NCBI GenBank assembly: GCA_023251255.1
Contig: JAHEZD010000010.1
Coordinates: 10,492-74,491, forward strand
DNA: 64,000 nt
Direction: 5' to 3'
Source: Chitinophagaceae bacterium
GTDB taxonomy: Bacteria > Bacteroidota > Bacteroidia > Chitinophagales > Chitinophagaceae
The notes below the pieces were generated by a model. It did no database searches, had not been told where the DNA came from, and saw nothing but the letters and a program-made list of their open reading frames with translations. Position numbers and translations under genes: made by a program. Shown here in pieces: positions 8,614 to 64,000 of this stretch. The first letter of the stretch is position 1. Every line of letters begins with the position of its first letter.

Positions 8614-11600
8614 TTAATAAGGAAATGAGTTTGTCTTTAAATCATAAAAGGAGAACATGGGCATCTCAACTGGCTTCAAGTGTTTAAGCGGTAAAATGTT
8701 CTTCGAGATTACTAATGACTTAATAGTCGGCTTGTTGGGAAAAGCCAATTTTATCTGAACCTGCTCAATATTTTCTTCCAGCCATCTGTGCCTTTTGATG
8801 TGCTTTTCTATTAATCCTTCTTTTCCGTCCACTCCTAAATAATTATCCATCTCCATTTTATAATCGTAAGTCAGTTTTGCCTGTATTGTGTTCTTGCACT
8901 CGATAGAGTAGACGATGCCGTTTATTTCATCTATCCCTAGAATATCAATATCACCTTTGTCAATGTCACTAACAAAAAAGCCTTTAGGCTTGATTTTTAC
9001 CTCATGATCAAATACTTTTAGCTTAGTATTTTGTTTTAACCATTCCAGTATCTCGTCACGGTATTCATCCCCTTTAATTTTGTTCCTTTCAGCCAATAAT
9101 TGAATAATCTTCTTATTTGCTTTGTCTACTTTCAATGCACCGTTAAAGAAAAGCGACATGATATTTTCAGAAGCTGTCAACAAGTGTCTTGCACTTAATA
9201 AAAAATATTCTTCCCCATCTTTTTGTAAAGAAATAATTGGTCGAAGCAAATAAGACAGGCGCCTGTTGAATCTCCATGGATACACTTCCCATCCTTCAAA
9301 GCCCGGTGGTGGGGTTAAGGGAGCAGGCCGCTGCAGGAACTTCATTATTTTCAAAAATGAATATATTTTCTCCTGCTGAAAGTCTGTTATGTCCAACATC
9401 CATTTTATAAAATCGTTTTCTGATAACAGTCTTACAGAAGTGTTCTCAGAAAGCAGAACGGAAGCAATCGCATGGCAGGCCATATCTAACTCACCTAAAG
9501 TAAGTCCCCATTCATCGAGGAAAGCCTTGTTCAATTTTTCTGCAAAATGTTTTTGTTGGGGGCTCGATACCTTTTCCTTTTTCTTCCTTTTGAAATATTG
9601 ATGAAAGTCTTCGGTATAAGAATGAATTTCTTCTGCATACACCTGATCCCTGAACCGGCCAATCCCCTTTCTTTCCTCTTTACTTATACCGACCCTGCCT
9701 GACGGCAGTGCGACAATTTCAGGGTCTTCGATTTCATATTTGATAGAATCTGAAAGGCTTGCGTAATTAACCAGTTGTATGATATGGGCAAGTAAAATAT
9801 CTATCTCGTCCTGTGAAGCGATTTTTTGCCCTGTCTCTGGTTCTAACGCAGTAAATTCAATGAGTATCCTTGCAGCAAGGCTTGTTTCAACTAGATCGGT
9901 TTCCGATTCAGAAAATTCCTTATTCACGTCATAGTACTTGGAGTAGCAAAGAAGCTTAGCAGGATAGTTGATATGCCTGAATGCCCTTGCCTGAAGCAGC
10001 GATTCATTTTTTCTCATCACAGTAATGAGTAACTGCTCTTTGTCTAATTCCTTTATTTTATTCGTTATTATTTTATAATGTAATCCAACCAGTTTATTTA
10101 AGAAAGCTATTTTTTCAATAACCTTTTTTAGTGGCTTGTCCAGTGGTGGGTCTAATGCAAGCCAGTCAAGCTGGTTCTCCAATATATAGGAGAGGTCTGC
10201 ATCCGGGATATACCTTTTGGGCGGAATATCGGTCTCGACAACCTTGATATCATTATCACCATTAAAAAGCAGCAGCATTTTTCTAGGGCTTATCGGGATA
10301 TACTTTTCCAGCAAAAAATGTTTCTCTGTCTCATCCATTAAAGTCCCACCCATGGCAACAATTATCTTTCCAAACATATCCAATAGGAAATCAATAAGTA
10401 TCCTCTCTCCACGGTTTTCCGGTCCGGAAAAAAACTGGATCATTTCAATCGGGATAGTAAAAGCTATTTGACGTTTTACCGGGTCAACCCTAAATGGTAT
10501 ATCATGATCAATATCATCATATATCTCTAAATCTTCCAAGCTTTCGAGTTTATAAAACTGTTCGTGAAGTTTTACTTCCACCCTGATTGGTGGTAAACCT
10601 AACTGGTTGAGATAGTCTTTTACACCTTCGTGGATTTCGTTCAACCAGTACATGATAGCATTGATATACAAATCGCCTTTTCTGTCATTTTCTGCTGCTT
10701 CGAACCAGATAGGGCAGGAATACTTCAGCAAACAGGAACGTGCGATTCCGAAATACATTTCCTGTGATATGTATACAGGGTAGTATTCTTCTTTACGTAC
10801 GCACTGCATAAACCCAAATGTCTCTCTGGTGCCGTAACCTATGCCAATTTTATCAAGTTTTGATAACCCTTCCCTTCTCACATTGCCCGCAATGCTGAAT
10901 TCCAGCAGAAGGTGTGTGTACCTTTTATCATCGCTGTGAAAAAAGGATTCCACATGTTCTTTATAATAATGAAAGATTGCCAAATGCGATGTCATTGGCG
11001 CCAGTTCAACCGATTGTTCGGCAAGGGTTAAATATTTTACATATTTCCATAAAGTGAGGCTATTGAATTTCCAGTTTCTCGTCAGCACCAATAATTCAAC
11101 CGTGGTTAGACTGATGAAATAGGTTATGCCTTTAGTCTCACCAAACGCCAACATGGAGTAGCTCACCAGCCCGACTTTCGAAACAATACTTACCAGCATT
11201 ATCTCCACTGTTCCGATTGTCTTCTTCAACTTCTTTATAACATCATCAAATCTCTTTTGCAGAATCCCTGAAAAGACAGGCCCTGCCTTCTCTTTCTCTA
11301 ATGGTGTAAGAATATTTTCAGTCAGGATAACCACATAAGTGAATTTGCCCTCATCTACTTTCCAGATACTTTCATTTAAAAGCATATAATTAGTAGAAGA
11401 ACCATCAAGTGAAGGAAACTCAAAAGATACCTTTGACCACCTCATTCGTGCAAATACAGACATGACCTCCGGCTGGGCAGATAATGCAAATTCTTTGACC
11501 AATAAAGCTGTTGCATTGTATTCACCAGCTTTCTTCAATATAAATTGAATAAGGCTCTGAATTATGGCAGTGGGCATAACAAGCAAAAAGACCCCTTCCA

Positions 11601-12393
11601 CAAATATGAAAGGCTGATGAAACAATTGACTGTCATCATCGTCCCCAAATTCAAGTGCTTGGGTTTGCCATTTAAAAACAAACGCATCCAATGTTTTGTA
11701 TGGTATCTGATAGTTGTCGCAGACTGTTTTGATATCTGTGAAGCTGAAAGCAAGAATGTCTTTGTTTTGAACCAGGTAGTTGTTATCAGGTATGTATAAC
11801 GTATCCTGGTTTGCCTGCTCAAACATCCGATGAGAATGCCCGAGCTTTTTTGCTATCTCCCTTTGTATGGTAAGCAGTAATAGGAGTGCATGGTTACATT
11901 CCGTTAAAAAGTTATCGGGGAAGCCTGTATCGTGGATCAAGGCATTGATGTGATATTGCAATATTTCTACCACATCAATAAAAATGCCCGGGTATACTAC
12001 ATTGTTCCCATTGGCATATACGATATTCTCAGTAAAGAAATTGTCCGGTGGGTCTTCTCTATAATCCTTCGGAAATTCTTTTAGCAGGTCCTTTCTAAAT
12101 TGGTCAATATCTAAAAGAGTATTCTTTTCATTCATTGACTTGATCACTTCTGTAACAGCTACTTCCAGCCTTATATTCTTACCATGATTTTGAGGCTGTA
12201 ATTGCAGTAAGGAAAGGATTTTAAGAACTTCCACAGATGGATGATTATTGCAAATCGAGAGTGTTGATTTTGGGATGTTTTTTTTATTTGAAGAAGCAGT
12301 GCCTAATCGCCATGGTGCGTCGGGCTTGTCTATGCAACACCTTTTATACTGCTTTCCGCTGCCGCACGGGCATTTGGCATTTTTGGCAATCAT
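8614..12393 (-). CDS. 1259-residue SEC-C motif protein with a C-terminal nuclease-like domain
   Basis: The N-terminus carries an SEC-C zinc motif, CPCGSGKQYKRCC (C8, C10, C19 and C20), the metal-binding tail found in SecA and in many nucleic-acid-associated proteins, here placed at the front. About 1100 residues of unrecognised, mostly mixed alpha/beta sequence follow. Near residues 1145-1165 the segment KGDIDILGIDEINGIVYSIE, followed by CKNT, gives a D...ExK restriction-like core with downstream KMEMDNYLG. It is the largest gene of the operon, 44 bases after the HEPN gene and 2 bases before DUF5677. The length and layout suggest the effector or scaffold of a multi-protein complex. The domain ends are recognised; the middle is new to me. 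Confidence 0.65.
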   Translation of the reverse strand: MIAKNAKCPCGSGKQYKRCCIDKPDAPWRLGTASSNKKNIPKSTLSICNNHPSVEVLKILSLLQLQPQNHGKNIRLEVAVTEVIKSMNEKNTLLDIDQFRKDLLKEFPKDYREDPPDNFFTENIVYANGNNVVYPGIFIDVVEILQYHINALIHDTGFPDNFLTECNHALLLLLTIQREIAKKLGHSHRMFEQANQDTLYIPDNNYLVQNKDILAFSFTDIKTVCDNYQIPYKTLDAFVFKWQTQALEFGDDDDSQLFHQPFIFVEGVFLLVMPTAIIQSLIQFILKKAGEYNATALLVKEFALSAQPEVMSVFARMRWSKVSFEFPSLDGSSTNYMLLNESIWKVDEGKFTYVVILTENILTPLEKEKAGPVFSGILQKRFDDVIKKLKKTIGTVEIMLVSIVSKVGLVSYSMLAFGETKGITYFISLTTVELLVLTRNWKFNSLTLWKYVKYLTLAEQSVELAPMTSHLAIFHYYKEHVESFFHSDDKRYTHLLLEFSIAGNVRREGLSKLDKIGIGYGTRETFGFMQCVRKEEYYPVYISQEMYFGIARSCLLKYSCPIWFEAAENDRKGDLYINAIMYWLNEIHEGVKDYLNQLGLPPIRVEVKLHEQFYKLESLEDLEIYDDIDHDIPFRVDPVKRQIAFTIPIEMIQFFSGPENRGERILIDFLLDMFGKIIVAMGGTLMDETEKHFLLEKYIPISPRKMLLLFNGDNDIKVVETDIPPKRYIPDADLSYILENQLDWLALDPPLDKPLKKVIEKIAFLNKLVGLHYKIITNKIKELDKEQLLITVMRKNESLLQARAFRHINYPAKLLCYSKYYDVNKEFSESETDLVETSLAARILIEFTALEPETGQKIASQDEIDILLAHIIQLVNYASLSDSIKYEIEDPEIVALPSGRVGISKEERKGIGRFRDQVYAEEIHSYTEDFHQYFKRKKKEKVSSPQQKHFAEKLNKAFLDEWGLTLGELDMACHAIASVLLSENTSVRLLSENDFIKWMLDITDFQQEKIYSFLKIMKFLQRPAPLTPPPGFEGWEVYPWRFNRRLSYLLRPIISLQKDGEEYFLLSARHLLTASENIMSLFFNGALKVDKANKKIIQLLAERNKIKGDEYRDEILEWLKQNTKLKVFDHEVKIKPKGFFVSDIDKGDIDILGIDEINGIVYSIECKNTIQAKLTYDYKMEMDNYLGVDGKEGLIEKHIKRHRWLEENIEQVQIKLAFPNKPTIKSLVISKNILPLKHLKPVEMPMFSFYDLKTNSFPY

Positions 12394-56436: not shown

Positions 56437-57003
56437 ATGCTCAGCCTGCTGCATTACCTGCAATCGATCCATCCCATCACCCCCGAGGCACAACAGTACC
56501 TCGGGAAGGTGCTGCGGAAAAAAGAACTACGCAAGAACGCCTTCTGGCTCAAACAGGGGGAGACCTGCAACCGTATTGCCTTTATTGAAAAGGGCATGGT
56601 CAAGATATTCTTCGAATCGGGCAACAAGGAGATTGCTATCTGGTACAACAAGGAAGATGACGTGATGATCTCGGTCAAGAGTTTCTTTTTTCAAATGCCT
56701 TCGCAACTTGCCATCAAGGCCGTTGAACCAACCACGCTGTATTATATCGAGTATGCCGAACTGCAGGGCATCTACCAGTCATCGCTTGATTTCAATGTCA
56801 ATGGGCGGAAGATCCTGGAGCATTATTACAGCACATTGGAAGAACATACGATGATGATGGCGAAGCCGCCGAAAGAACGGTATGATGACCTCGTGCGGCT
56901 ATACCCTTGGATGAACGATTCGAAACGGTTCAAGGACTATATGCTGGCGGCGTATTTGGGGATTGACCGGACGACACTGAGTAGGTACAAGAATGGAAAG
57001 TGA
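56437..57003 (+). CDS. Crp/Fnr-family transcription regulator
   Basis: 188 residues. The N-terminal cyclic-nucleotide-binding-type barrel is clear (FWLKQGETCNRIAFIEKGMV, FFESGNKEIAIWY), with a shortened C-terminal DNA-binding region; the helix-turn-helix is at YMLAAYLGIDRTTLSRYKNG, near the very end. The cAMP-binding arginine pattern is not visible, so the ligand is unlikely to be cAMP. It lies 110 bases before the ABC transporter operon, whose start carries a 23-bp palindrome, and is a candidate regulator of it. Confidence 0.88.
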   Translation: MLSLLHYLQSIHPITPEAQQYLGKVLRKKELRKNAFWLKQGETCNRIAFIEKGMVKIFFESGNKEIAIWYNKEDDVMISVKSFFFQMPSQLAIKAVEPTTLYYIEYAELQGIYQSSLDFNVNGRKILEHYYSTLEEHTMMMAKPPKERYDDLVRLYPWMNDSKRFKDYMLAAYLGIDRTTLSRYKNGK

Positions 57004-57089
57004 GATAAAGGCTTGCCTTGATCTAAACTACTGTAAATCAAAATAATACATTTTTTGTCTGAAATCGTCTAACCTTATAAACACAAATA

Positions 57090-57112
57090 GCCGTTAGTTT
57101 AAAACTAGCGGC
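57090..57112. promoter_or_regulatory. 23-bp near-perfect palindrome at the start of the importer operon
   Basis: GCCGTTAGTTT (57090-57100), a central A, and AAACTAGCGGC (57102-57112) match as inverted arms at 10 of 11 positions. The ATG of the first permease gene begins at 57114. The position, over the ribosome-binding region, would let a bound regulator or the RNA hairpin block translation or transcription. Confidence 0.6.
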
Positions 57113-57113
57113 G

Positions 57114-58004
57114 ATGATCCTGCAAATTCTTGTAAATAGTATTTTATCAGCAATGCTACTTGCTTTAATTGCCATTGGATTCAACATGATCTTTAATGTA
57201 TCCAAAATTTTCCACCTAGCACATGGTGCATTTTATACATCGGCAGTATATCTTTTTTATGGATTGCGTAGCATAATAGGCAAGCACTTGTCTCTTGTGC
57301 CAACCATCTTAGTTAGTATTGTTACTTCTTTATTAGGCATCGGTCTTTTAATACTACTTGTTGAATATTTTATTTACCGCCCACTTATTAAAAGTAAATC
57401 GAATCCTGTCATTTCATTGATTTCGTCATTGTGTGTTTACTTAGTGATGATAAATATCCTGATCCTGATTTTCGGGAATGATAGTATTACACTGAATCCC
57501 AGTTATGCAATAATAATCGATAACAAATTTTTCAGAATGACAACTGCAGATATGGTCGTTTTTGTTTTCGGAACGATTGTAATTGCCTCTGTTCTTTTAT
57601 TTACACGGACAAATCTTTATAATCAAATAAAGGCAATATCTGATAGCACATTAATAGCAAAAAAATTTGGCATCAACGAACAACGCATAAGAATAATAGT
57701 CTTTTTAGTTGGAACCATTTTGGTAGGGATTGCCGGAATATTGAAAGCTAACCAAACTGCTTTTGAACCAAATCTTGGCCTGACAGCCATATTAACCGCT
57801 TCTGCAGCAGTTATAGTTGGTGGGGTTAATTCATTAACAGGGACGCTCATCGCATGTTTTGTCATTGCTCTGCTTGAAAATTTTTCAGTTGCTATCATCC
57901 CGGCAATATGGAAAGATTCATTGACATATTTCCTTTTAATTATGGTCCTAGTCTTTTACCGGAAAGGGCTTATTTCAATAAAACAAAGAATCGAAACAAG
58001 ATGA
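57114..58004 (+). CDS. Branched-chain amino-acid-type ABC permease (LivH-like)
   Basis: 296 residues with about eight membrane helices, starting MILQILVNSILSAMLLALIA. The loop RTNLYNQIKAISDSTLIAKK followed by FGIN is the conserved cytoplasmic segment of LivH permeases, where the ATPases dock, and VGGVNSLTGTLIACFVIAL the late helix. It pairs with the LivM-like permease that follows by an ATGA overlap. Substrates of the family include branched-chain amino acids, urea and short amides. It is the first gene of a seven-gene operon. Confidence 0.9.
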   Translation: MILQILVNSILSAMLLALIAIGFNMIFNVSKIFHLAHGAFYTSAVYLFYGLRSIIGKHLSLVPTILVSIVTSLLGIGLLILLVEYFIYRPLIKSKSNPVISLISSLCVYLVMINILILIFGNDSITLNPSYAIIIDNKFFRMTTADMVVFVFGTIVIASVLLFTRTNLYNQIKAISDSTLIAKKFGINEQRIRIIVFLVGTILVGIAGILKANQTAFEPNLGLTAILTASAAVIVGGVNSLTGTLIACFVIALLENFSVAIIPAIWKDSLTYFLLIMVLVFYRKGLISIKQRIETR

Positions 58005-58867
58005 ACTGGATGCATATTTTTTTCATGTGCGAAATCTATATAATGCTCTCGTTGAGTGCGAACCTTTCTTCGGGTTATACCGGTTTGCTTTCATTTGCCA
58101 ATGCCGCTTTTTATGGCTTAGGAGCATATGTAACTGCCCTTTGCCTGAAAAAATTATCCCTAACATTTTTCCCATCATTATTAATCGCCATCTTATTTAA
58201 TATGGTGGCAAGTTCAATTATTACTTTTCTTTCAATGAAACTGAAAGAACTTTATTTCACATTGGCAACCCTTTCATTCCAGGTTATCGTTTTTTCAATT
58301 CTTTACAACTGGGAAAATGTAACAGGTGGCAGCTATGGGATTACTGCAATACCGTCTGCAACTATTCTCGGATACAGTTTTACAACTACTGCCTCCTATA
58401 CTTTTTTAGCTGCTATCTTCCTGCTGGCCATTTTTTCTTTTTTTCTTTTTTTTAGGAGGCGACCTTTTTTTGATCTACTAGAATGCATACGGGATACTGA
58501 ACTGGGCGTAGTGTCGTTGGGTAAAAATGTTTTTACAGCCCGGCTTGTTTGTAATGCTATCAGCTGTTCTTTTATGGCTGTAGCTGGAGCCTTGTTTGCG
58601 GTATATAACAGCTATATAGACGCTACCTCCTTTACACTGAATGAAAGCATATTGATTATAAGCATGATATTAATTGGAGGGATGGGAAATATTAAGGGGC
58701 CAGTATTAGGTGCTTGTTTTTATGTAATGCTGCCTGAAATAATAAGACTCATGCCTATTGACAGTTATAAAGGGGCTTGCCTGCAAACTATTATCTATAG
58801 CATAACCCTGATTTTTATTGTTAGGATTAAACCTAATGGCATTTGGGGAAAATTCAAATTCAATTGA
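58001..58867 (+). CDS. Branched-chain amino-acid-type ABC permease (LivM-like)
   Basis: 288 residues from the ATG at 58001, which overlaps the LivH stop (ATGA). An earlier in-frame ATG exists inside LivH but adds non-membrane residues. It has about nine hydrophobic helices, with LSANLSSGYTGLLSFANAAF, YGLGAYVTAL and IRDTELGVVSLGKNVFTARL as LivM signatures. Together with LivH it forms the membrane channel. It ends overlapping the LivG start by one base. Confidence 0.9.
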   Translation: MNWMHIFFMCEIYIMLSLSANLSSGYTGLLSFANAAFYGLGAYVTALCLKKLSLTFFPSLLIAILFNMVASSIITFLSMKLKELYFTLATLSFQVIVFSILYNWENVTGGSYGITAIPSATILGYSFTTTASYTFLAAIFLLAIFSFFLFFRRRPFFDLLECIRDTELGVVSLGKNVFTARLVCNAISCSFMAVAGALFAVYNSYIDATSFTLNESILIISMILIGGMGNIKGPVLGACFYVMLPEIIRLMPIDSYKGACLQTIIYSITLIFIVRIKPNGIWGKFKFN

Positions 58868-59571
58868 TGGATAATAAAATCCTCCATATAAAACACCTAA
58901 GTAAATCTTTCGAAGGGTTGAACCTTTTCGATGATGCCAGTCTTGAGATTTCAGCAGGAACTATCAACGTATTGTTGGGTGGAAATGGTAGTGGCAAAAC
59001 CACACTTTTTAATATGATCAATGGCTATGAAAAACCAGATGCGGGAGAAATCTGGTTTAATGGCTTAAAGTTGCACGGTTTACATGAATACGAAATTGCA
59101 AGGGTTGGAATGGGACGGGTATGGCAATCGCCGATAGTATTTCCGAATCATACTGTGCTTGACAACTTACTTATCAGTAGCCATGAAAGAAAAGGAGAAA
59201 ATATTCTATACTGCTTATTCAGATATCAATCATTTGTCAAAGACGAAAAGCGTTTGAAAAGCAAAGCATTGCTCTTGCTCGAAGAAATCGGTATGCTTTC
59301 TAAAAAAGAGTGTTTAGCCGGAGAATTATCACTTGGCGAAAAAAAGATCTTGGGTATTGCCATGTTGCTCATGAATGATTCAAAATTACTCCTGCTGGAT
59401 GAGCCATACAGTAATATAACTGTATTGATGATTGAAAGGATTTCATCTATTCTAAAGGATATCAGGGAGCAAGGGAAGACGATATTGATGATTGAGCATA
59501 AAGTAATGTATGCACGTGTTATTGCGGATAAGATGTATAATATAAATGACAAAAAAATCGGAGCGAAATAA
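58867..59571 (+). CDS. ABC transporter ATPase (LivG-like)
   Basis: 234 residues from the ATG that overlaps the LivM stop by one base (TGATG). Walker A GGNGSGKTT (38-46), signature LSLGEKK, Walker B LLLLDEP and the H-loop MIEHK are all present. VGMGRVWQSPIVFPNHTVLD is the Q-loop region typical of LivG-type ATPases. It powers the importer with the LivF-like ATPase. Confidence 0.92.
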   Translation: MDNKILHIKHLSKSFEGLNLFDDASLEISAGTINVLLGGNGSGKTTLFNMINGYEKPDAGEIWFNGLKLHGLHEYEIARVGMGRVWQSPIVFPNHTVLDNLLISSHERKGENILYCLFRYQSFVKDEKRLKSKALLLLEEIGMLSKKECLAGELSLGEKKILGIAMLLMNDSKLLLLDEPYSNITVLMIERISSILKDIREQGKTILMIEHKVMYARVIADKMYNINDKKIGAK

Positions 59572-59574
59572 TCA

Positions 59575-60291
59575 ATGAAAACTAATGAAGCTGACATATT
59601 CATTATTAATAACCTTGTGGCGGGCTATCCATCTGCGGTAGTCCTGGAAGGAATAGACATTTCATTTCAAAGAGGTGAAATATGTGGCATTATTGGCGAG
59701 GAAGGTGCAGGAAAATCCACGCTATTGAAGGCGCTTACGGGACAAATTATTCCCAAAGGAAGCATAGTTTACAATGGCAAGGATATTTCAGGATTACCTA
59801 CTCATAAGATCATACAGAACAATATGGATTTTATAGTACAAGGAGGCAATATACTGCCTGCTTTTACCGTGGAAGAGCATCTCCGTCTGGCTGTGTCTGG
59901 CAAAAGTAAAAAAGAAGCGACTGTATTATTAGAGACGGTAGTAGAAACATTCCCGATAATGAAAACTTTAAAAAAACAATATGGAGGTACATTGAGTGGT
60001 GGTGAAAGAACCCTGCTTTCAATAGCATGCGTATTAGCTACCAATAATGACTTACTGATCCTCGATGAGCCCACTGCTGGTCTTTCACCAGAAATGTGTT
60101 GTTCGATTGAAAAATCACTACTATACCTGAAAAAACAAAATAAAACAGTCCTGCTCCTGGAACATAACTACGATTTCGTTTTCGGTGTCGCTGATTCGGT
60201 AGGTGTGTTGAAAGATGGGAAAATGAGCAGGAAGTTTAGGGCGGATGAATTTACTATGGCATCTTTCATTGAAAATGAATTATATCAATAA
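59575..60291 (+). CDS. ABC transporter ATPase (LivF-like)
   Basis: 238 residues. Walker A GEEGAGKST (41-49), signature LSGGERTLL, Walker B LLILDEPTAG and the H-loop LLLEHNYDF are intact. It begins 3 bases after the LivG-like gene. The two unequal ATPases are the usual pair of this transporter class. Confidence 0.92.
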   Translation: MKTNEADIFIINNLVAGYPSAVVLEGIDISFQRGEICGIIGEEGAGKSTLLKALTGQIIPKGSIVYNGKDISGLPTHKIIQNNMDFIVQGGNILPAFTVEEHLRLAVSGKSKKEATVLLETVVETFPIMKTLKKQYGGTLSGGERTLLSIACVLATNNDLLILDEPTAGLSPEMCCSIEKSLLYLKKQNKTVLLLEHNYDFVFGVADSVGVLKDGKMSRKFRADEFTMASFIENELYQ

Positions 60292-60306
60292 ATAAAAATA
60301 AATACC

Positions 60307-61416
60307 ATGAAAAAGAATCTTGTCAGACTAGCATTTTTTGCGTTGGTGGTTGGCTTTTTTATTGTTAGCTGCCAGTCAAATAACCCAAAAAATGATTCCG
60401 TGAAATTTGTGGCAATCGTAGGCCTAACTGGTAATTCCGGATCATTAGGAGAAGACACCAAAAATGGGATACAGTTAGCAATTGATGAACAAAATGCAGT
60501 GGGAGGGATATTGGGCAAAAAGATCATACTTGATGTAAAGGATTCGAAAACAGATGGCAATACCGGAGTAAATATTGCAAAACAAATCCTGGAAGGTCCA
60601 GATGAAAAGCCGATTGGGATCTATACACAATCCAGCGTGGTCAGTATGCCTGTAAAACCGATAGCGGAAAAAAATAAAACCATCATGTTTGCCATTTCTG
60701 GTGCAGATAAATTATTAGAGGATGCTAAGTATACTTTTAGGAATTGGGCCAATCCACAAACTGCAGGGAATAAAATAGTTGCTTTTATAAATGATTCGAT
60801 GAAAAGCAAATCAGTTGGTATTTTTTATTGCAATAATGATTACGGAAGGAGCATGCAGAAATATGTATCAAATAACTGCACTGCAAAAGGCATCACAACA
60901 ATTTTCTCCTCTGCGTTTGATGAAAAAGATGGTGACTACAAATCATTGCTCGCCCAGAACTTGCCGAAGGGTAAGCAACCTGATTGCATTTACACTGTTG
61001 GACTTGGCAGCGGTTTAGGTATATTGACGAAACAAATGAGAGAAATGGGATACGCAGGGAAAATCATAAGTGATATTACTGCCCCTTATCCAAATATATT
61101 AAACGCAGCAGGTGATGCAGGTAAAAATATGTATTACCTTGATTTTGCTTATGATAACAAAAGTACTTCTCCCGACCAGGAAGCATACCATTCCAGCTTC
61201 CTAAAAAAATATAACAAAGAGCCACTAAATTTTTCAGTTGTTTCCTACAGTGCATTAAAACTCTTTTTTAAAGCAATAGCTGCTGCAGGAACATTTGACC
61301 CAGACAAAGTGGCGAATGAACTGAATAAACTAAGAGATGCCCCAGGTGCTTTTGGTAATGTGACCATTGAGAATAATGAGGTAATTTATTCCCTTAACAT
61401 AAAACAAATCAAGTGA
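60307..61416 (+). CDS. ABC transporter substrate-binding lipoprotein (LivK-like)
   Basis: 369 residues with a lipobox at C22 (FFIVSCQSN), so it is anchored in the inner or outer membrane. The mature part is a type I periplasmic binding protein: FVAIVGLTGNSGSLGEDTKN, GIQLAIDEQNAVGGILGKKI, IYTQSSVVSMPVKPIAEKNK, and the VGIFYCNNDYGRSMQKYV segment. It delivers the substrate to the permease. It ends 4 bases inside the next gene (GTGA overlap). The ligand is not determined; LivK relatives bind amino acids, urea, amides or aromatic acids. Confidence 0.9.
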   Translation: MKKNLVRLAFFALVVGFFIVSCQSNNPKNDSVKFVAIVGLTGNSGSLGEDTKNGIQLAIDEQNAVGGILGKKIILDVKDSKTDGNTGVNIAKQILEGPDEKPIGIYTQSSVVSMPVKPIAEKNKTIMFAISGADKLLEDAKYTFRNWANPQTAGNKIVAFINDSMKSKSVGIFYCNNDYGRSMQKYVSNNCTAKGITTIFSSAFDEKDGDYKSLLAQNLPKGKQPDCIYTVGLGSGLGILTKQMREMGYAGKIISDITAPYPNILNAAGDAGKNMYYLDFAYDNKSTSPDQEAYHSSFLKKYNKEPLNFSVVSYSALKLFFKAIAAAGTFDPDKVANELNKLRDAPGAFGNVTIENNEVIYSLNIKQIK

Positions 61417-62900
61417 AGCAAATAGTATTTGATTATAGGACTGGTAAGGGGATGATCTGGAACCTTCAAGAAATTCTCGCAGCATACCCTTTTGGCTTAA
61501 CAGATTCACCATGGAATAAGCCTGGCATAAGCACTACAGACGAAGAATGGATAGACTTATTTGTATATGAGGGCTATAGCCAATATGGAAAGGATTTCCT
61601 TAAATATGTGGAAGGGAGGTTTGCCATAGTATATTATGACAAGGTAAAACATAGAATATTTATTACACGTGATTGGATGGGTGAAATGCCTTTGCATTAT
61701 TTAATTGCTCAAAACGGATTTTATTTGGCGAATACTATCTATAGGATCAAGGAAGCGATGCAGCAGGATTTTACATATGAGAATATACGTGCTTTTCCAC
61801 AAGGGTACTGCCAGGTGATCGAATTAAACAATAGTGACGAAAATAATATAGCTGCCACTTATCGGCCTGATAAGCGCCAACTGTATTATGATTTTGAAGA
61901 AGAAGTTATCTCAAAGAGTAATCTCGAGACGGATATAGAGAAATTCGATTTTCCTGCCCTCTCTGCTTACATCAAGGAAGCGGTACTAAAACGATCAAGG
62001 AATACAAATGGAATCAACTGCCTTTTGCTTTCTGGTGGGCTTGATAGTTTATGCATTGCGGTTGCCATGAAATCGGCTGGAGTCAATTTTGAAACCTTTA
62101 CACTTTCCATAGATGATAAGCTGGGCGAAGCTGATATGGCGGATATTTTCGCCAAAAAATTAGGAGTAAAACATACTGTGATAAATGTAAGCACGGATGA
62201 AATTGTCTCCAGCTTTGATGAAAGTGTCAGGATTGGAGAGGCTTATCATTTATATAATGTGTACTGCACCTTGGGAATGCTATTGTTGGGCAAAAAATTA
62301 GCTGAATTGGGAATTACAAAAGCTTTTTGTGGTGAAGCAATGAATGAAGCCGTTGGGGATTACAAGGATTGGTGTGTATACAATCCAATTCTCAAGAAAA
62401 ATATCCTGCTGCAGAAAATAAACACTGAAAGATTACAGAATATACCAGAAAGGATCCTTTATGTGTGGGGCAACTCTGTAGACAAAGGCAAATACAACCG
62501 GCAACTGGGTACAGGGCTTGCCAAACATGCAAGTGCCCGTATGGTCAAACCATTTATGGCAAATAATATTGACTTACATTGCCCGTATTACCAGCCTTCT
62601 TTTTTGTCCTCCATTGTTGCATTCTCACCAAGGCAACTAAAAGAAATTGGTTATAAGCCTGGACTATTATGGCGAATCTTTAAGAACGACTTTGAGCAGT
62701 ATGGGTTTGATGAAGCGATGATCAAGCAATGCAAAAAGATCCGTTTGCAGGATGCTTCCGAAAATGGCGAGTATGGAATATCTTCAATATTGCTTGCTTC
62801 AGGCGATAACCAGGAAAAGGCATTATCAATATTTAATAACTTCTTCAATACTAATTATAATATAAAAGACAAAACCAAAACATTGCTTTGCACAGCTTAA
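61413..62900 (+). CDS. Asparagine-synthetase-like protein without the glutaminase cysteine
   Basis: 495 residues from a GTG start that overlaps the upstream stop. The N-terminal domain has the fold marks of an Ntn glutaminase (FLKYVEGRFAIVYYDKV, FITRDWMGEMPLHYLIA), but residue 2 is Lys instead of the catalytic Cys. The synthetase domain is intact, with the ATP-binding LLLSGGLDSLCIAVAM near 207-220 and a late basic motif (KQCKKIRLQ). Without glutaminase activity it cannot act as ordinary AsnB from glutamine. Beta-lactam synthetase and carbapenam synthetase share this loss and make intramolecular amide bonds. Its place within an importer operon suggests it modifies the imported compound. Confidence 0.8.
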   Translation: MKQIVFDYRTGKGMIWNLQEILAAYPFGLTDSPWNKPGISTTDEEWIDLFVYEGYSQYGKDFLKYVEGRFAIVYYDKVKHRIFITRDWMGEMPLHYLIAQNGFYLANTIYRIKEAMQQDFTYENIRAFPQGYCQVIELNNSDENNIAATYRPDKRQLYYDFEEEVISKSNLETDIEKFDFPALSAYIKEAVLKRSRNTNGINCLLLSGGLDSLCIAVAMKSAGVNFETFTLSIDDKLGEADMADIFAKKLGVKHTVINVSTDEIVSSFDESVRIGEAYHLYNVYCTLGMLLLGKKLAELGITKAFCGEAMNEAVGDYKDWCVYNPILKKNILLQKINTERLQNIPERILYVWGNSVDKGKYNRQLGTGLAKHASARMVKPFMANNIDLHCPYYQPSFLSSIVAFSPRQLKEIGYKPGLLWRIFKNDFEQYGFDEAMIKQCKKIRLQDASENGEYGISSILLASGDNQEKALSIFNNFFNTNYNIKDKTKTLLCTA

Positions 62901-62901
62901 A

Positions 62902-64000
62902 ATGAGCAACCTTAAAGAAATAACGACCCACATCAACAATGCAGTTTCCCAAGCATTGGTTAAAGAGAACAATACCCTCGAAAAGAAGATGTTTTCTTTC
63001 CTGTCTGCAATGCTGGAAATGAATGAGCAGGGAAAAATGATTTGTGAGAGTATACGCAAACTAAATGAAGATGTGGTATACGTAGTCCTTAATGGAATCG
63101 ACATCCGTAATGACGAAAGGGCATTCGTGACCGGAATCAATTGGTCCAATATTTCCGAAAGGATCATTGAAAAGAAAATTGGAATAGCAGCAATAGAGGG
63201 AGCCACATTGCAAAAACCCTTGGAAGAAGGAAGGACCATTTTATATGCCAGCAAAACTGAGAAACTACAAAACAAGATTGAAGACGCCGCTTACATAAAT
63301 GAGGTCTGGAAAGAAATCTGGTCTAGTTATCTCGTGCTCACAAAAGATGCGCAAAAGGAAGGGTTATTTACACTGAACCATTGGTTATTCAATAAGGTGC
63401 GGAACCCGATGAACATTGGGTTTTACTGGGGAAAACCAATTGAATCAGAAGAAGCAGAAAGTACCTATTTTTTCCTACCTCCAGAAACCCTTCGCAAACT
63501 ATCCATTGATGGGACAAAAAATGAAGACTTCTGTTCCATTGAACTTCCCAGCGATTTTAGTGGCCAAGTTGCTTATGACAGGGCATTGAATGAAATTAAG
63601 AATTATATGGATGACATGGGACAGGACGATCCTGGCATCAATAATTTTACAAACATCGGTTTTGCTATTTATCATATTATCCGCTCGTTTGGTTGCTGGG
63701 GCGGAGAAGCTTTTTACAGCATCCCGGTGAACCTTGGATTTTCTGGGAAGCAAAAAATCGGAATATTATCGATCTGTTCAAAAAAACCCCTTAGCCAAAA
63801 ACAAGCTGAAACCTGGACACTTGTTGCTATGAAGGCAATCAAGGATGTTATTTCACCCGATATAGACCTTTTTAATGAATATGTAAGGCAGAACAAATTA
63901 ATTGAAGCTACTTATGGGATTGGTCACCTGTATGGGAATGCTATCAAAGAAATGGAAACACCTTTCTCACTACTAAAATCGTATCTGGAAAAGGAGAATT
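62902..64000 (+). CDS. Unknown protein, 3' end outside the window
   Basis: 366 codons are open from the ATG at 62902, one base after the previous stop, to the window end. The chain starts MSNLKEITTHINNAVSQALV and has no signal or membrane helix. A segment near 230-300 (FTNIGFAIYHIIRSFGCWGG, IGILSICSKKPLSQKQAETW) resembles a GAF-like sensory domain, and the last visible helix (YGIGHLYGNAIKEMETPFSL) could begin a histidine-kinase dimerisation helix, since GHLYGN resembles an H-box. This would make it a sensor for the operon, but the evidence is thin. The rest of the gene is needed. Confidence 0.5.
   Translation, partial: MSNLKEITTHINNAVSQALVKENNTLEKKMFSFLSAMLEMNEQGKMICESIRKLNEDVVYVVLNGIDIRNDERAFVTGINWSNISERIIEKKIGIAAIEGATLQKPLEEGRTILYASKTEKLQNKIEDAAYINEVWKEIWSSYLVLTKDAQKEGLFTLNHWLFNKVRNPMNIGFYWGKPIESEEAESTYFFLPPETLRKLSIDGTKNEDFCSIELPSDFSGQVAYDRALNEIKNYMDDMGQDDPGINNFTNIGFAIYHIIRSFGCWGGEAFYSIPVNLGFSGKQKIGILSICSKKPLSQKQAETWTLVAMKAIKDVISPDIDLFNEYVRQNKLIEATYGIGHLYGNAIKEMETPFSLLKSYLEKEN

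Follow-up and report, generated by a model that had tools for sequence, protein, structure and literature searches.

A possible import, modify and sense operon with an exchangeable input module on a putative conjugative element of a Chitinophagaceae bacterium

Introduction

Coupling of a transport component and a histidine kinase in one pathway has been described for the SLC5-STAC kinases CbrA and CrbS and for PstSCAB-PhoR (accessible part of PMC5715377). In this study a stretch of 64,000 nucleotides (bases 10492-74491 of the 99,478-base contig JAHEZD010000010.1; hereafter the window) was analysed from the 6.1 Mb, 98% complete genome assembly GCA_023251255.1 of a Chitinophagaceae bacterium. 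It contains an operon that likewise joins transport to signalling-like genes, as a HAAT-family (Liv/Urt-type) importer is followed by an AsnB-like synthetase and by a probable diverged histidine kinase and receiver pair. The reading put forward here, to which we give about an even chance of being right, is that of a small-molecule sensing operon borne on a mobile element, in which a compound is imported, modified and sensed by a kinase/receiver core with an exchangeable input.

The operon differs from the systems mentioned in several respects. In CbrA and CrbS a transporter domain is fused to the kinase, whereas the kinase-like protein described here has no membrane segment, and in contrast to both CbrA/CrbS and PstSCAB-PhoR the present loci add an enzyme and vary in the type of transporter. 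PhyR-NepR-EcfG is a known pathway that combines a kinase, a receiver and a sigma-like part; in the present loci the last of these is encoded by a third gene of its own, and the focal locus shows no such signal. The LivKHMGF and UrtABCDE importers have the same domain set as the focal importer (two BPD_transp_2 permeases, two ATPases and a Peripla_BP_6 protein); unlike in these, the last importer gene of the focal locus overlaps an AsnB-like gene, with the signalling-like pair next in line. All of the parts have relatives that are known. Literature titles and abstract openings, a coverage that excludes most subscription journals, gave no description of such a cassette, be it the gene arrangement, the core families missed by databases or the change of input between loci, and there is a fair chance that these loci form a class of their own. 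If the reading holds, import, one-step chemistry and phosphorelay signalling would be linked in a single transferable unit, and the loci would offer natural experiments in which the input chemistry alone changes. They would also provide hints on the ligands of binding proteins and AsnB-like enzymes that remain nameless in databases, and bring to notice kinase-like and receiver-like families missed by Pfam and NCBIfam.

Results and Discussion

The AsnB-like gene is followed on the plus strand by genes for proteins of 566 amino acids (aa; 62902..64000, on to 64602), 563 aa (64608-66299) and 244 aa (66301-67035). Positions beyond 64000 are in extended window coordinates; the 563 and 244 aa genes lie outside the window, and the operon extends to 67035. 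In the sequence-only reading, an unknown protein began one base after the AsnB-like gene. The +1 bp gap was found as described, and the extension to the right that this reading had proposed completed the 566 aa protein and added the 563 and 244 aa genes, followed by tra genes. None of the three proteins has a Pfam or NCBIfam match above cut-off or a specific PADLOC model, the 244 aa protein giving sub-threshold matches only, to HTH_60 (0.019) and, in PADLOC, to Cmr3 (4.3e-4).

Relatives of the core were found in few genomes. When 395 phylum genomes were searched with the 563 aa protein, G568 was the single non-self relative. An 84,980-species collection, scanned with a two-row alignment under a restriction to two short patterns, yielded 271 stretches with two relatives among them: L032, which is a Chlorobiaceae metagenome-assembled genome (MAG), and L033, another MAG, in which the 637 and 409 aa proteins are the same. 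One further relative, G268 (1e-25), came from a profile search that covered 394 genomes of the family; 19 genomes with weak matches in that search (E 0.003 to 0.52) were left out. The Chlorobiaceae MAG and L033 share one operon and are therefore counted once, and the six overlapping genome draws gave three loci in all, two of them non-self. Only G568 was found among 98 genomes of its class and only G268 among 6 genomes of its genus, while 395 class genomes and, with the kinase-like profile, 396 order genomes gave the own locus only. Scanned viral contigs contained no relatives, and plasmid tblastn searches with the core proteins and the methyltransferase-like protein of G268 gave no match. The core system is rare and patchy within the searched genomes.

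In all three loci the core is preceded, on the same strand and with gaps of -20 to +26 bp, by transporter and enzyme genes, which differ from locus to locus: a Liv importer and the AsnB-like enzyme in the focal locus, a B12-binding radical SAM protein and a TrpX-type ATP-binding cassette (ABC) importer in L033, and a major facilitator superfamily (MFS) carrier and a methyltransferase-like protein in G268. The L033 operon starts with the radical SAM protein and a PF04392 lipoprotein (TrpX model 204.8 bits, cut-off 390) and continues with a BPD_transp_2 permease, an ABC ATPase, a 722 aa kinase-like protein, a 637 aa receiver-like protein and a 409 aa protein. In G268 the MFS carrier and the methyltransferase-like protein (PrmC model 5e-7, 29 bits, cut-off 199) are followed by kinase-like (498 aa) and receiver-like (571 aa) proteins and by an open reading frame (ORF) of 218 aa, or 197 aa from its likely start. 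As to whether the focal importer and enzyme occur together elsewhere, no orthologue of the enzyme was found among 294 family genomes, and both related loci carry another transporter and another enzyme. The product of the third gene of L033 (9174-10403) combines an N-terminus resembling sigma region 2 (Pfam E 0.0075, below cut-off) with an Inv-AAD deaminase domain (2.6e-16). Its sigma-region-2 signal had a P of 4.7e-5 with 0 of 50 controls as high, and the third gene of G268 gave a weaker one (P 0.01, 1/50). The focal 244 aa gene had been read by eye as a sigma factor as well; this assignment was dropped, 40 of 50 controls scoring as high.

Within the core, the receiver-like proteins matched each other pairwise across the three loci at 1e-31, 3e-29 and 5e-19 in a 23-protein database. 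The kinase-like proteins matched in parts of their C-terminal halves (focal/L033 1e-9, focal/G268 5e-4), and hydropathy indicated no membrane segments in them. For comparison, profiles were made from 30 kinases and 30 regulators of the own genome. Between the kinase (HisKA/HATPase) profile and the alignment of the three kinase-like proteins, 166 columns spanning H-box to N-box could be matched (P 0.0087; P 0.0032 when the C-terminal part was used by itself), with H342 and N478, the H-box His and N-box Asn, in order and invariant in 3/3. None of 60 column shuffles scored as high; the signal is marginal and does not appear with single sequences. Column shuffling is a rough test, as cross-pairing of the receiver-like alignment with the kinase profile gave 30/60 as high, with one anomalous value of 134.7. 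With the receiver profile the three N-termini matched at the LLIDD/WIED motif, above 48 control ORFs and 20/20 shuffles each, although the margin is small for the weakest (22.7 vs 21.4). The 50 control ORFs, self-hits included, contain the focal and G268 core proteins, and the 48 are those that are not receiver-like members. An acid pair, D107 and T196 are kept in the receiver-like proteins, with D11, D107 and T196 invariant in all three. These similarities suggest that the 566/563 aa pair is likely, though not proven, to be a diverged histidine kinase and receiver.

The enzyme of the focal locus (61413..62900, plus strand; 495 aa, GTG start) matches Asn_synthase (9e-13) and part of GATase_7 (8.5e-10) in Pfam. 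The AsnB family includes beta-lactam synthetase and lasso-peptide cyclase, which work without the glutaminase Cys; beta-lactam synthetase keeps a full-length, Cys-less N-domain. As had been noted from the sequence alone, residue 2 of the focal protein is Lys and the glutaminase Cys is absent. There is no Cys start upstream, because the frame is closed by a stop five codons above the GTG. The protein was aligned with 23 AsnB-family proteins (four copies from the own genome and 19 non-self loci from a longer match list). The Cys2 column, which is Cys in 21/23, is replaced or missing in the focal enzyme, the HRGP and RL columns (each 21-22/23) and the QP column are gaps, and the NGE motif reads KGM, with most of the NGE region gone. 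Up to the column of its D43 the enzyme is 58 residues shorter than the family. Three of the 23 have no Met-Cys start near the frame start: L001, whose frame is cut near the contig end, L012 and L024 (MSGIAG). Because the Cys2, HRGP and RL columns are replaced or missing and some 58 residues are lacking, the amidotransferase (glutaminase) half is truncated and not only mutated. The SGGLDS PP-loop is retained (S207-S212; SGG-DS column in 22-23/23), as are E239 and E312.

The focal enzyme shares with AsnB (TIGR01536, 1ct9) the SGGLDS PP-loop, part of the GATase_7 region and the GE...E motif, but differs in the loss of Cys2, HRGP, RL and most of NGE and in its score (97.5 bits vs a cut-off of 267). 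The comparison with beta-lactam synthetase made in the sequence-only reading stands in so far as the protein is a Cys-less AsnB-family member. In a PDB search, however, it was nearer to human asparagine synthetase (3.8e-11) and E. coli AsnB (5.2e-6) than to beta-lactam synthetase (0.14). The lasso-cyclase NCBIfam model gave 2.5e-9 and 36 bits against a cut-off of 525. Unlike both beta-lactam synthetase and lasso-peptide cyclase, the enzyme has a truncated N-domain, and no precursor or partner genes were recognised at the focal locus. An AsnB-family match of some kind is present in 215 of 294 genomes of the same family, yet no orthologue was found in these 294, since the best non-self match reached just 65.9 bits and 27% identity. 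A plasmid tblastn search with the protein gave 22 records, all below 60% identity and none covering 80% of the protein; among the 15 listed, the gene was asnB wherever one was given.

Canonical AsnB-family enzymes and PesC can use ammonia, and family members catalyse amidation and the formation of lactams and nitriles and act as tailoring enzymes on peptides and small molecules, as stated in the accessible part of PMC13060819. The focal enzyme could likewise use free ammonia or another amine. The same breadth of chemistry is compatible with cell-to-cell signalling, in which the enzyme would make a signal, the transporter would export or re-import it and the core would read cell density or donor/recipient state. 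Each locus has one enzyme of unrelated chemistry beside a transporter and a sensor, and the focal operon lies about 1.9 kb ahead of TraG, both in favour of this explanation. Two of the three transporters, on the other hand, are importers with binding proteins, no exporter was seen in those operons, and no precursor peptide gene was recognised, although no systematic search was made. We consider cell-to-cell signalling the least probable of the alternatives weighed here.

For the import, modify and sense operon we infer the ligand, enzyme reaction, kinase and receiver activities, phosphotransfer, direction of signalling and output as follows. The importer with its lipoprotein binding protein would bring in a small molecule, the AsnB-like synthetase would adenylate a carboxylate and join it to ammonia or another amine, within one molecule or between two, and the product would be the true ligand. 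The soluble, highly diverged histidine-kinase-like protein may sense this ligand through its variable N-terminal half and transfer phosphoryl from its His342 to Asp107 in the receiver-like partner, whose long C-terminal half would act on the downstream gene product, sigma-region-2-like in the two related loci. Transporter and enzyme are read as the exchangeable input module and kinase and receiver as the constant core, because the former two differ in each locus while the pair stays. The wider proposal, that the loci represent an undescribed class of modular signalling cassettes by which the cell reads a modified form of an imported compound, seems to us somewhat more doubtful than the reading of the operon itself. 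In this proposal a constant core of a diverged soluble histidine kinase, a receiver with a long C-terminal half and a sigma-like output is combined with an exchangeable transporter/tailoring-enzyme module.

Several observations weigh against the reading of the operon. Only three loci are available, and the kinase-like proteins of L033 and G268 have no direct mutual match in the 23-protein database. Scored one by one, the kinase-like sequences stay within the range of the controls: an equal or higher score was reached by 4, 5 and 11 of 50 controls and by 3, 3 and 4 of 20 shuffles (focal, L033 and G268, respectively). Because the G1 box of the kinase appears degenerate and the receiver Lys was not found, both by eye, phosphotransfer may have been lost. 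AlphaFold models of the 566 and 563 aa proteins, from two-row alignments, had pLDDT (predicted local distance difference test) values of 30 and 34. Searches of the PDB with profiles of the core alignments retrieved neither a kinase nor a receiver; one was without a match, and the other had SKP2 chains alone, with E values of 0.44 or above. Nor does the focal 244 aa protein give a sigma signal over the controls mentioned above. In the enzyme, near-invariant AsnB columns are altered (D367 to N, R494 to G) and the K521, K541, G543, F544 and P547 columns are gapped, a second alignment placing that end differently; because of these changes its synthetase activity is unproven.

The importer genes are all on the plus strand. 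They encode a LivH-type permease of 296 aa (57114..58004; BPD_transp_2 3e-27; nearest NCBIfam models UrtB/LivH, all below cut-off), a LivM-type permease (58001..58867; BPD_transp_2 1.6e-31), a LivG/UrtD-type ABC ATPase (58867..59571; ABC_tran 9e-29; UrtD 165.5 bits vs cut-off 304), a LivF/UrtE-type ABC ATPase (59575..60291; ABC_tran 2e-30; UrtE 171.7 bits vs cut-off 286) and a LivK-like HAAT-family substrate-binding lipoprotein of 369 aa (60307..61416; Peripla_BP_6 2.9e-44). The livM start at 58001, in an ATGA overlap, is more likely than the 57908 of the ORF list, and the livG start at 58867 more likely than 58843. With these starts the gaps are -4 (livH/livM), -1 (livM/livG), +3 (livG/livF) and +15 bp (livF/binding protein gene), followed by -4 bp to the AsnB-like gene, +1 bp to the 566 aa gene, +5 bp to the 563 aa gene and +1 bp to the 244 aa gene, after which there is a gap of 78 bp. 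Pfam bears out the complete Liv-type importer described from the sequence alone, with BPD_transp_2 twice, ABC_tran twice and Peripla_BP_6 before the AsnB-like gene. The coupling of these genes is indeed tight, at -4 to +15 bp with one gap of 15 bp. Two permeases, two ATPases and one type-I binding protein in a single operon place the importer in the HAAT (Liv/Urt) family; every part scores below the NCBIfam curated cut-off for an equivalog identity as Liv or Urt. The binding protein has a Cys lipobox, and its best solved relative in a PDB search is 3td9 (1.1e-30). One other Peripla_BP_6 match is present in the genome, at 39 bits (cut-off 31.7) vs 153 bits for the focal protein. Alignment with solved HAAT proteins did not fix the identity of the ligand; alignments read by eye give the impression that it may not be a standard amino acid.

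A complete HAAT importer with a standard binding protein would also suit a catabolic or salvage operon for one nutrient, in which metabolism would be the task of importer and enzyme and the kinase/receiver pair would serve just to regulate the operon, a role known from many transporter-linked two-component systems. A single enzyme step beside import is ordinary, and a Crp-like regulator lies locally upstream. However, each of the three loci has its own transporter and enzyme next to a constant core, both related loci end in a sigma-like gene, in one case with a deaminase, the operon holds no further pathway genes and it sits inside a putative conjugative element. We regard a nutrient operon as unlikely, though as the most probable of the alternatives. 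The earlier suggestion that a specific small molecule is taken up and activated, or that this is a dedicated sensing system, fits the kinase-like/receiver-like pair directly downstream; what has weakened is the likeness to beta-lactam synthetase.

The Crp-family gene (56437..57003, plus strand; cNMP_binding 1.8e-8) ends 110 bp upstream of the operon, and it is possible but unproven that it is part of the system. The G268 operon, too, has a Crp-like gene at a distance of 300 bp upstream, 22% identical to the focal one (L137/L136, G268 contig 1, reverse-strand extract 10942-11577); because such genes are common, the shared neighbour may be due to chance. An inverted repeat at 57087-57115 (14 nt arms, 86% complementary, 1 nt apart) runs into the livH start and is possibly an operator or RNA hairpin.

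Left of the window the contig carries genes for a VirD4-type coupling protein, a MobA/VirD2-type relaxase, a ThiF protein and a Prok-E2_D protein. To the right of the operon TraG, TraJ, TraM and DUF4138 proteins follow in a Bacteroidota conjugative-transposon pattern, with TraG on the same strand as the operon. Because of the relaxase and coupling genes on one side and the tra genes on the other, we take the operon to be carried as cargo by a conjugative element. The operon genes have a G+C content of 0.33 to 0.39, near or below the window value of 0.39. The ThiF and Prok-E2_D genes, which are of PRTRC type, adjoin the relaxase and coupling protein genes (L126 2361-8747).

The mobile location and patchy distribution would also fit a biological-conflict system, for immunity or abortive infection, in which the kinase/receiver relay gates an effector and the L033 deaminase is one version of it. 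Histidine-kinase-based immune systems have reportedly been treated by Burroughs and Aravind in 2020. Receiver domains occur in conflict systems (accessible part of PMC8195603), which favours this explanation, as do the sigma-like/deaminase fusion of L033, the DNA methylase gene 162 bp upstream of that operon and an Upx-like candidate defence gene on the focal contig. Set against this, PADLOC gave no specific anti-phage match, but an ATPase overlap for LivG/LivF and the weak Cmr3 match of the 244 aa protein alone, the focal and G268 operons have no recognisable effector, and importers and metabolite enzymes are atypical of defence operons. A conflict system appears improbable to us, less so than cell-to-cell signalling and more so than a nutrient operon.

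The Upx-like gene (8614-12393, minus strand) encodes a 1259 aa SEC-C protein that matches the PADLOC Upx candidate defence model at 3e-26; its neighbours, up to 19963, include genes for a sub-threshold PglZ-like protein and a CoiA/DUF6035-like protein, and together they are a possible defence operon. The methylase near the L033 operon (2-1015) is an N4/N6 DNA methylase with an SNase-like tail. The combination of a sigma-region-2-like part with an Inv-AAD/RibD-like deaminase in one L033 protein is an unusual fusion. A plasmid tblastn search with this protein gave 89 records; the 20 listed matched from query residue 188 onward only and were RibD where annotated. In the Chlorobiaceae MAG copy of the operon, the kinase-like frame (L031, 12991-14514) is open for 507 aa, compared with 722 aa for its L033 counterpart, and stops just short of the contig end.

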